Shown here in pieces: positions 43,543 through 63,661 of a DNA stretch of 64,000 bases (the first letter of the stretch is position 1; each line of letters opens with the position of its first letter). Source of the stretch: Pseudodesulfovibrio sp. GTDB lineage: Bacteria; Desulfobacterota; Desulfovibrionia; Desulfovibrionales; Desulfovibrionaceae. The DNA is taken from assembly GCA_016342345.1 (NCBI GenBank), contig JAEINO010000001.1, forward strand, positions 1-64,000, given 5' to 3'. Below the pieces are notes generated by a model. It worked only from the letters and a program-made list of their open reading frames with translations, did no database searches and was not told the DNA's origin. The translations under genes and the position numbers were made by a program.

Positions 43543-44907
43543 ATGGAAAAGCAGGGCAGTAAATATGGTATAGACAAGACGACCAAAGTCTTTTTTTACC
43601 TCTGTACAACTTTTTGCATCAGTTTTTTTTTATGGGCATCAGTCAGTCCACTAGATATTGTCAGCGATGCGATCGGTGAAGTAATACCGAGCAGTAGGGT
43701 TAAGAGAATTCAGCATCTTGAAGGCGGAATTGTCCGTGAAATAAAGGTGCGTGAAGGAGATTCTGTCAAGATTGACCAGCCTCTTGTCGAGTTGGAAACA
43801 ACGGCTAGTCAATCATCCGTGGAAGAATTGAATGTTCGTGTCGCTTCCCTCAAGACAGAAATTGAACGGCTTGAAGCAGAGGCTCGCTGGTTTGATGACC
43901 CTAAAGCTGCAACAGACACCAATGGAACGGGAAAGGCTTTGCCAGTTGCATTGTATTTGGACCCTTATTCGGTCGAATTGATCTTTCCACAGGATGTTAT
44001 TGCTGATTCTCCTGATTTAGTGACTCAGGCTCTGGGATTGTATGAGACGCGTCGGGACAGACTTGTCAATGATCTTAATACACAACTGGAAAAAATTAAG
44101 CAGCGAGAACAGGATGTCGCAGAAATATCTGCACGGATCAGAAATCAGCGAAAGAATTTGGTGTATGTCCAAGAGCAAATTTCCATCAGCGAAGAACTTC
44201 TCAAAGACAAATTGACTTCTCGCTATAAGCATCTTGGATTTTTGAAAGAAGAGTCTACGCTTGTAAGCAAGATCGAGGAAGACCGGGCTGCGCTTGCGCG
44301 TTCACAATCAGCCATGGCTGGCGCCAAGGAACATTTGGATCAAATTTATAATTCATTTAATGAGGAAGTGCAGGAACTATTAAGAAAATCTCGAAGAGAG
44401 CTTCTTGAGTTTTCACAACGGCTTCGAAAAACATCGGACAGTCTTGACAGAACGGTTATAAGATCCCCAGCCAATGGTATAATCAAATCCATTTATATCA
44501 TGGGAGAAGGTGAAGTCGTTCAACCGGGCATGACTGTTCTTGATATAGTTCCAGCAGGTGACAAACTCGTTATTGAAGCTCATCTGGCTTTGGGTGATAT
44601 AGGATATGTACAAGCAGGACAGCCTGCGACGGTCAAGCTCGCAACCGGTGATGCAAGAATGTTTGGTAATATTGACGGAATCGTAAAACACATCAGTCCT
44701 GACGCCATTACAAAGCCGGAAGAGGGGACCTTCTACAAGGTTTTGGTGGAAACAGAAAATGATCGATTTGAGAAAGATGGTCGACGTTATCAACTGTATC
44801 CGGGCATGCGTGTATTAGTCGGGATAAAAACAGGCGAGCGTACTGTTATCGAATATTTGCTTTATCCATATTTTGACAAATTATATCAAGGTCTTCACGA
44901 ACGATAG
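43543..44907 (+). CDS. HlyD-family type I secretion periplasmic adaptor
   Basis: Single N-terminal TM; VKRIQHLEGGIVREIKVREGDSVKIDQPLVELE; coiled coil; TVIRSPANGIIKSIYIMGEGEVVQPGMTVLDIVP. Confidence 0.92.
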   Translation: MEKQGSKYGIDKTTKVFFYLCTTFCISFFLWASVSPLDIVSDAIGEVIPSSRVKRIQHLEGGIVREIKVREGDSVKIDQPLVELETTASQSSVEELNVRVASLKTEIERLEAEARWFDDPKAATDTNGTGKALPVALYLDPYSVELIFPQDVIADSPDLVTQALGLYETRRDRLVNDLNTQLEKIKQREQDVAEISARIRNQRKNLVYVQEQISISEELLKDKLTSRYKHLGFLKEESTLVSKIEEDRAALARSQSAMAGAKEHLDQIYNSFNEEVQELLRKSRRELLEFSQRLRKTSDSLDRTVIRSPANGIIKSIYIMGEGEVVQPGMTVLDIVPAGDKLVIEAHLALGDIGYVQAGQPATVKLATGDARMFGNIDGIVKHISPDAITKPEEGTFYKVLVETENDRFEKDGRRYQLYPGMRVLVGIKTGERTVIEYLLYPYFDKLYQGLHER

Positions 44908-56253: not shown

Positions 56254-56865
56254 ATGAAAGGGCGTCCAGGTCTGACTGTTCTTGTTATTTTTGCCATTGG
56301 GCTTGCTGCTGGTGTCGCCATTAATGCGATTTTTTTTTCAGATCCCATTATTGAAAAAGTCTCAGTCGAAACTGAAACGGAAAAGTCGCACGAACGTTTG
56401 TTTGATGATGCAAATGTGACAGCCGAAGACATTGAGTTGGTCCAAGGGAAACATGGTAGCATGACATGGAAGTTACTTGCAAAAAGTGCGAAGTATGATC
56501 AGGAAAGACACTTGGTTGGTGTTGAACGTCCTCAGTTGACTGCGTATTTTGGCGTTGATCGGCAGGAGGTGTATGTCAAATCTGATAGAGGTGAGATTGA
56601 TCAAGGCAATGACAATTTGACATTATATGATGGAGTAACCGGTCGTTTCGGTGATATTGCACTTGATGCTCAACATCTTGATTATGTTGGTGCCATTGGT
56701 AAAGTTTATCTCAAGGGCGGAGTCCTATTGCGTCATCCAGACATGACAATAAAGGCCGTTGCTGTGGAAATTGATCTTGTTACTCACAAACTTGTTGCTG
56801 CCGGTGGAGTCGAAGCCTTGCTTGCGCCCAAAGGCATCGAACAGAATCTATTATATGAACAATAG
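56254..56865 (+). CDS. lptC: LPS export protein LptC
   Basis: N-terminal TM then VTAEDIELVQGKHGSMTWKLLAKSAKYDQ…GRFGDIALDAQHLDYVGAIGKVYLKGGVLLRHPDMTIKA; between kdsC and lptA. Confidence 0.88.
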   Translation: MKGRPGLTVLVIFAIGLAAGVAINAIFFSDPIIEKVSVETETEKSHERLFDDANVTAEDIELVQGKHGSMTWKLLAKSAKYDQERHLVGVERPQLTAYFGVDRQEVYVKSDRGEIDQGNDNLTLYDGVTGRFGDIALDAQHLDYVGAIGKVYLKGGVLLRHPDMTIKAVAVEIDLVTHKLVAAGGVEALLAPKGIEQNLLYEQ

Positions 56866-62044: not shown

Positions 62045-62485
62045 ATGGCTGCAAAATGTGAAAGTCGAGATAAAACATTTGTTGGTGTCGTTCTCGTTAC
62101 TCATGGAGCCTTCGGGGAAACCCTTTTGGCTGCAGCAAAGACAGTGCTTGGCCCTCAGGATAATTGTCAGGCCATAGGCGTGGATGTAAACATCGGTGTG
62201 GACGAAACCATGGAAGCAATTCGTTCGGCCATTCGTTCCGTCGAGAATGGAAAAGGTGTTCTGGCTTTGACTGATCTCTTTGGCGGATCACCAACCACCA
62301 TGAGTCTTTCGCTCATGAAATCGGAGAATCTTGAAGTCATTACAGGTGTCAATCTCCCTATGGTTGTCGCCACGCTTCAGGCACGCCTTTTACCTTTGAA
62401 TGAATTGGCTGAAAAAGCCAAGGACGCCGGACAGCAGGGCATCAAGGTGGCTGGCGCCATGTTACGCAAAAAAACCAAGAAATAG
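62045..62485 (+). CDS. PTS mannose-family EIIA component
   Basis: VVLVTHGAFGETLLAAAKTVLG; VLALTDLFGGSPTTMSLSLM. Confidence 0.93.
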   Translation: MAAKCESRDKTFVGVVLVTHGAFGETLLAAAKTVLGPQDNCQAIGVDVNIGVDETMEAIRSAIRSVENGKGVLALTDLFGGSPTTMSLSLMKSENLEVITGVNLPMVVATLQARLLPLNELAEKAKDAGQQGIKVAGAMLRKKTKK

Positions 62486-62495
62486 GTGTAGCTCC

Positions 62496-62960
62496 GTGAT
62501 TCTTGTTCGTATAGATAATCGTTTGATTCACGGTCAAATAATCGAGACGTGGCTTCCTTTTACCGGGGCGAATCATGTCATTGTTGCCAATGACGGATTG
62601 GCAAATGACGTACTACAACAGGAAATCATGTCGCTTGCCATACCCCAGACAATCGAGAGTTATTTTATCAATGTTGATCGTTTGTCAGAAAAAATTGAAC
62701 AGATTCAATTCATTAATGATGCGCAGGGTATAGTTGTCCTGTTTTCAAGTTGTCCTGATGCCAAACGAGCTTTTGACTCGGGTTTTGCATTTGATAACCT
62801 TAATATTGGAAATGTTCATTACAGCCCTGGCAAGAAACAAGTGTCCCCAAGTGTTGCACTTTCAGATGAAGATGAAAGATGTCTCAGGCAATTGACCAGA
62901 AAAGGGGTTGAACTCGATTTTCGTTGTGTTCCCAATGATCCCGTTCAGGTGAGGTTCTAG
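62496..62960 (+). CDS. PTS mannose-family EIIB component (GTG start)
   Basis: MILVRIDNRLIHGQIIETWLPFTGANHVIVANDGLANDVLQQEIMSLA with active-site His; C-terminal LNIGNVHYSPGKK. Confidence 0.92.
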   Translation: MILVRIDNRLIHGQIIETWLPFTGANHVIVANDGLANDVLQQEIMSLAIPQTIESYFINVDRLSEKIEQIQFINDAQGIVVLFSSCPDAKRAFDSGFAFDNLNIGNVHYSPGKKQVSPSVALSDEDERCLRQLTRKGVELDFRCVPNDPVQVRF

Positions 62961-62963
62961 ATT

Positions 62964-63661
62964 ATGCAAATGAACGATCCATTCATGTGGTTTGCTTTGG
63001 TCGCTTTTTTTTTGCCTTGTTTTCCCTTTTTAGAAATTCGGTCAGTGTAGGGCTTCTTGAACGTCCTCTAGTCGTAGGACTGTTTTGGGGAGCTTTTACG
63101 GGCGAATATACTACAAGTTTGTATATTTCCATTTTTTTTGAGCTGTTTTGGCTTGATTTGATTCCTGTTGGTACCTTTATTCCCCCACATTTGACTGCTG
63201 CGACTTTTTCGGCTCTTTCGCTGACAACCTATTTGGGATTGGATCATCCTGCTCGAATAATGGGTGTACTTTTTGCCAGTATGCCATTTGCATGGCTCGG
63301 CACAAAAGTTGAAGAATTGCTTCGTGAACAGGAGCGGGGGAGTTATAACAAACTTCTTAGATGGGCTCGAAATCCTGAATCCCCGAATCTTCCAGGCACT
63401 CTCGTTTTACGTTCCCTGTTACGAACACTTGTCCTGTCTTGGGTGACATTCTATGTTTCCATTCTTTTACTGAAATATATTTTTCAGATGATATTTTCTT
63501 TGTATCCCGGTTTCTTGACATCAATCGACATTACATGGTCGCATCTATGGGTAGCTGCAACACTTGGTGGCCTGATGGCTCTTCGGCTTAAACGCGTCTA
63601 TGCCGTTCTCGCAACAGGGATTTGTATTTTTGTGCTTTTCTCTATTTGGGGCCGCTTTTAG
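62964..63661 (+). pseudogene. PTS mannose-family EIIC-like membrane protein with an apparent frameshift at a T9 tract (63005-63013); the annotated ORF resumes at 62987
   Basis: ATG 62964 (RBS GGTGAGG) reads MQMNDPFMWFALVAFFLPCF… and stops; the -1 frame after T9 reads FFALFSLFRNSVSVGLLERPLVVGLFWGAFTGEY… to 63661. May be a true gene with sequencing error, slippage or programmed frameshift. Confidence 0.75.

Follow-up and report, generated by a model that had tools for sequence, protein, structure and literature searches.

A conserved T9 tract at the frame junction of a PTS EIIC gene in the Desulfovibrionales, a probable site of programmed slippage

How can a gene whose start codon and coding body lie in different frames give a full-length membrane protein? 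This question is raised by a mannose/sorbose-type PTS EIIC gene found in the window, the 64,000-nucleotide stretch of Pseudodesulfovibrio sp. DNA analysed here (contig JAEINO010000001.1, positions 1 to 64,000). The first-pass annotation of this DNA had placed the start at ATG 62964, had seen the frame lost within a run of nine Ts, and had offered assembly error, phase variation, transcriptional slippage and programmed -1 frameshifting as explanations. When checked on the sequence, its coordinates and translations proved exact for the EIIB stop, GGTGAGG, ATG 62964 and the T9 tract at 63005-63013. The features of the locus are as follows.

62045..62485, + strand: mannose/fructose-type EIIA, the gene that opens the EIIA-EIIB-EIIC block (86 bits against Pfam PF03610, EIIA-man)
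62496..62960, + strand: EIIB of the mannose/sorbose type, with a GTG start and a TAG stop at 62958-62960 just 5' of the EIIC ATG (Pfam PF03830, PTSIIB_sorb, 156.6 bits)
62948..62954, + strand: Shine-Dalgarno sequence GGTGAGG serving the frame-0 EIIC start (from the sequence)
62964..63050, + strand: frame-0 ORF, taken as the true EIIC N-terminus, from ATG 62964 through T9 to TAG 63048-63050, a 28-aa peptide if unslipped (from the sequence; codon-position GC and hydropathy fit coding)
63005..63013, + strand: T9 tract, the putative slippage site, read in frame 0 as GCT TTT TTT TTG, where the frames can be joined by a -1 shift or by one added U (each of the nine columns is T in 38/38 genera)
63005..63661, + strand: EIIC body in the -1 frame (FFFALFSLFR...), EII-Sor family (Pfam PF03609, 39.8 bits)

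ATG 62964, nine bases 3' of GGTGAGG and shortly after the end of EIIB, was confirmed as the start on the sequence, and its frame-0 translation is MQMNDPFMWFALVAFFLPCFPFLEIRSV followed by the stop. The GTG ORF at 62987-63661 lies in the -1 frame relative to this ATG. Start and body do meet within the T9 tract in different frames, and insertion of one T reproduced the proposed read-through product, an EIIC of 232 aa in total, for which the expected tryptic peptide across the joint is MQMNDPFMWFALVAFFFALFSLFR. The body alone matches PF03609 from profile position 10 with 39.8 bits, and the read-through product from position 2 with 42.8 bits, both above the family cut-off of 26.3 bits. The earlier beginning of the read-through match suggests that the N-terminus belonging to the family is encoded in frame 0, and GTG 62987 is probably not the real EIIC start.

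In gene order, the block comprises a PTS_EIIA_2 gene, then RapZ and then EIIA-man, EIIB and EIIC, and the gene 3' of EIIC is read, by similarity, as a manganese-dependent pyrophosphatase. The EIIA, EIIB and EIID partners are all present in the genome, EIIA and EIIB adjoining EIIC and EIID standing apart on a separate contig (G000:C139:17539-18036, L224), so that the genes of the transporter occupy two loci; the genes behind EIID look like HPr and EI. T9 tracts as such are common, with 72 in this genome. Others stand within intact ORFs in the window, as had been pointed out, in lptC (56330-56338) and in an HlyD-type gene (43623-43631). A scan of 30 of the 72 tracts for further split genes left four after the frame filter, all of which look intergenic or antisense on inspection.

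EIIC homologues were found in 145 of the 199 genomes of the family and in 227 of the 297 genomes of the order, with one genome per species, and 192 distinct homologues from across the order were read together with their flanks. The alignment of EIIC N-termini and T tracts in relatives, which the first-pass annotation had proposed as a check, gave T9 with the same -1 offset in 176 of these 192. In 175 of them the register is identical, the two coding frames being joined in the same register and the same direction in every case (175/175), and these genes span at least 38 genera and five families and include 26 single-contig assemblies. The named GTDB genomes, which overlap the main set, gave T9 in 54 of 59 readable loci; Humidesulfovibrio, Halodesulfovibrio, Fundidesulfovibrio, Nitratidesulfovibrio, Desulfonatronospira, Desulfomicrobium and Desulfohalobiaceae are among the genomes with readable loci. 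Outside the order, elsewhere in the phylum, neither the shift nor a T run was seen in the 15 readable EIIC genes (16 were fetched, one locus being too short). A pattern combining GGTGAGGTT with GTCGCT9GCC was too strict, and matched in congeners only. It is the conservation of T9 together with the frame offset, not T9 itself, that exceeds chance.

Tract lengths among the 192 homologues were T9 in 178, T8 in five and T10 in two, with no tract in seven. All 15 exceptions to the offset are in frame from the upstream start: two with T10 (L193 and L175), one with an A in front of T9 (L055), five with T8 and seven without a tract. One further homologue (L163) is cut by the contig end. By parsimony, the tract state changed at least 11 times on the tree. 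The T10 gene of Salidesulfovibrio brasiliensis JCM 12178 (L242, tract near 1473; the same gene as L193) encodes an intact 231-aa EIIC, and its T10 is either a natural reversion or a sequencing error. The other T10 homologue (L175, from the single-contig assembly G293) has a second break in the body, at about 2005-2030 near a run of seven Gs; this may reflect a decaying gene or homopolymer errors, and the sequence may be of poor quality. The L116 homologue (G180, body match at 990) carries the one T9 that is displaced by one base relative to the codons; a frame-0 TAG follows one codon after the tract, and the same -1 shift is needed.

Which frame is translated upstream of the tract can be judged from several properties of the 175 genes in identical register. 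The frame-0 start is ATG in 166 of them, mostly 41-56 bases 5' of the tract, and it is accompanied by an SD-like sequence in 132 of the 133 T9 homologues of the family. In the body frame, by contrast, 121 of the 175 genes lack any ATG, GTG or TTG 5' of the tract. GC content at the three codon positions of frame 0 upstream (0.585/0.421/0.650) matches that of the body downstream (0.628/0.425/0.641), and over the ten codons preceding the tract frame 0 alone is hydrophobic (hydropathy 1.32, vs -0.69 in the body frame). On these measures both sides of the tract look coding, each in its own frame. The unslipped frame-0 peptide has 28 aa here and a median of 27 across the set.

The structural comparison pointed in the same direction. 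An AlphaFold model of a natural T10 homologue had a mean pLDDT of 89, and its first helix (residues 5-25) spans the joint; an EIIC started after the joint would, according to this model, be without half of that helix. The best matches of the model among known structures were Man-PTS chains (probability 1.00, E 0.004-0.02, TM 0.49-0.67). A search of the Protein Data Bank led to ManY with a profile and to a chance match only with the single sequence, and the score against the AgaW equivalog NF040757 was 27 bits, against a cut-off of 300.

We then considered the bases of the tract in relation to the codons. T1 occupies the third position of a frame-0 codon (GCT, GGT, AGT or TGT), and the T9 base that of the last Phe codon. 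Both are synonymous positions and could therefore vary without any change in the protein, but they never do. Where the codon holding T1 encodes Ala it is GCT in 101/101 genes, as compared with 13% elsewhere in the same genes, and the third Phe codon is TTT in 175/175, as compared with 51% elsewhere in the same genes; at the level of genera, all nine columns hold T in 38/38. The probability of this codon choice has a log10 of -58, a value that is too strong since it treats related genomes as independent, and it is the genus-level comparison and two controls, rather than the formal probability, that carry the argument for constraint. In the first control, the Phe-Phe pair within the xFFEL motif of these genes, all four codon pairs occur and T runs vary from 2 to 8. 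The second control was the in-frame lptC tract 6.7 kb upstream (56330-56338): T9 was present in one of 29 congeners, the window's own copy only, and is probably incidental. Taken at the level of sequence, these comparisons show a tract whose nucleotides themselves appear to be held at nine Ts, beyond the constraint of the protein.

Three explanations, assembly error, phase variation and an internal start, were tested against the homologue survey, the tract lengths and the start codons, and none of them held. Homopolymers are error-prone, and a true T10 misread in the window would give an intact 232-aa ORF; however, T9 recurs at this point in 175 genomes, each of a separate species and 26 of them single-contig, whereas Phe codons elsewhere in these genes are free to vary, and the probability left for such an error is negligible. 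A toggling of T9 (off) and T10 (on) within populations by replication slippage is suggested by the position of the homopolymer, close to where the coding sequence of a membrane protein begins, and by the T10 and T8 forms of a few species, but the length is nine in 178 of 192 homologues, which is not the spread of a contingency locus, and random capture would often find the on state, which T10 represents in two of 192. We regard phase variation as very unlikely. It is less likely still that no recoding takes place and that the body is read from an internal start of its own (GTG 62987 here), the frame-0 ORF being a leader peptide for translation coupling. The GTG opens the longest ORF, and short ORFs can couple translation. 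The first-pass annotation had added that homologues starting at the equivalent of this GTG would make a frameshift unnecessary; the GTG turned out to be unconserved, and in most homologues (121/175) the body frame offers no start codon upstream of the tract. The GTG product, moreover, would have half a first helix, containing an Arg, the in-frame homologues carry the frame-0 segment fused to the body, and a leader peptide needs no T at synonymous positions. Two of the four explanations offered at the outset thus fell, assembly error on the presence of T9 in 175 species genomes and phase variation on the fixed length of nine, and slippage or frameshifting received strong support, with the transcriptional form favoured.

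The ribosome could also make the shift, by programmed -1 frameshifting on T TTT TTT (frame 0 GCT TTT TTT TTG) in a uniform U9 mRNA, and an X XXY YYZ heptamer in the correct phase is indeed present in 175/175 genes. Such a shift needs T1-T7 only, yet the T8 and T9 bases, which lie outside the heptamer, are equally invariant, and the synonymous T9 base is never C, even in GC-rich genomes. No recurrent RNA structure was found around the tract in 38 genera, the mean z being -0.03 downstream and +0.46 upstream, and there is no recurrent internal Shine-Dalgarno, an SD-like core occurring in 5/175 only. The L116 homologue also retains T9, in a register shifted by one base, and we consider frameshifting by the ribosome unlikely. 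The constraint on the T8 and T9 bases, the absence of RNA structure and the rarity of an internal SD-like sequence favour slippage of RNA polymerase, with T9 read as U10. Bacterial RNA polymerase slips efficiently in vivo on nine A or T (PMC5009743), at least seven Ts in a run being required (PMC6260861), and selection against such runs appears at length nine in many genomes (PMC1088944).

The expression of full-length EIIC, as far as it can be judged from the DNA, very probably depends on a programmed slip of one base at T9. RNA polymerase would slip on the tract and produce a mixed pool of transcripts, among which those with U10 (or U7 or U13) would encode the 232-aa EIIC with its first transmembrane helix intact and those with U9 the 28-aa peptide, so that full-length EIIC would come from slipped transcripts only. 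We think it unlikely that T9 acts as a regulated gate, in which slippage would follow the UTP level or the elongation speed, the share of full-length EIIC would reflect the growth or energy state of the cell, and the membrane peptide of 28 residues would have a role of its own. Slippage might make this PTS switchable, as had been suggested, but a fixed fraction of full-length product is the simpler reading.

Single-base insertions are frequent in homopolymers. T10 was nevertheless found in only two of 192 homologues, although the insertion of one T mends the frame, and this suggests a cost to full EIIC expression. Slippage might hold the amount of EIIC under that of EIIA and EIIB, its partners in the operon, an excess of the membrane subunit perhaps being costly, and we infer that such a limitation of EIIC is the likeliest reason for the retention of the tract. 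The tract could also be a neutral trap, in which an ancient indel was tolerated through rescue by slippage and T9 was then kept only since breaking it would kill the gene. This possible reason for retention is compatible with slippage of the polymerase, and such frameshifts do persist in Blochmannia and Buchnera (PMC3017870). A single T insertion would, however, release the gene from the trap, and mutations of this kind are frequent, yet T9 is found throughout the order; Desulfovibrionales genomes, in addition, are not AT-rich reduced ones, and a purely neutral retention seems rather improbable.

These results would make EIIC a core, non-mobile bacterial gene that apparently depends on slippage across a whole order, in which selection for slippage becomes testable. 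They also imply that EIIC is probably mis-annotated, with a wrong start or as a pseudogene, in most Desulfovibrionales genomes, and that cultured sulfate reducers could offer a natural system for the measurement of RNA-polymerase slippage. No earlier report of EIIC slippage, or of slippage or PTS recoding in Desulfovibrio, was found in the main texts of the papers searched, the supplements of the GeneTack survey (PMC3711429) being outside this scope.

The EIIC site would be a new and unusually deeply conserved case of a known kind of slippage. By sequence profile and fold, the protein belongs to the same family as E. coli ManY and the lactococcal and listerial Man-PTS EIIC. The genes of these proteins are read in one frame. 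Unlike in ManY-type systems, EIID here lies apart, beside the genes read as HPr and EI. As in IS elements and Shigella mxiE/spa, where two ORFs are joined by slippage (PMC1088944, PMC5009743), a run of about nine A or T lies between two ORFs; those are mobile elements or a secretion system and are not known order-wide, whereas EIIC is a core sugar-transport gene. Similar to the poly-A/T tracts of Blochmannia and Buchnera, where transcriptional slippage rescues the genes (PMC3017870), the out-of-frame tract of EIIC is conserved between species. Those symbionts, however, have AT-rich reduced genomes with several such genes, whereas EIIC presents one site of one exact length in a mostly free-living order that includes GC-rich genomes. 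Thermus thermophilus dnaX, in which transcriptional slippage takes place on a run of nine As (PMC1088944, PMC5009743), resembles EIIC in having a nine-base A/T homopolymer within a cellular, non-mobile gene, where mixed transcripts would give two protein lengths. The outcome differs: in dnaX the unslipped transcript gives the long product, whereas in EIIC the functional protein would require a slipped transcript, the short product having about 28 residues.
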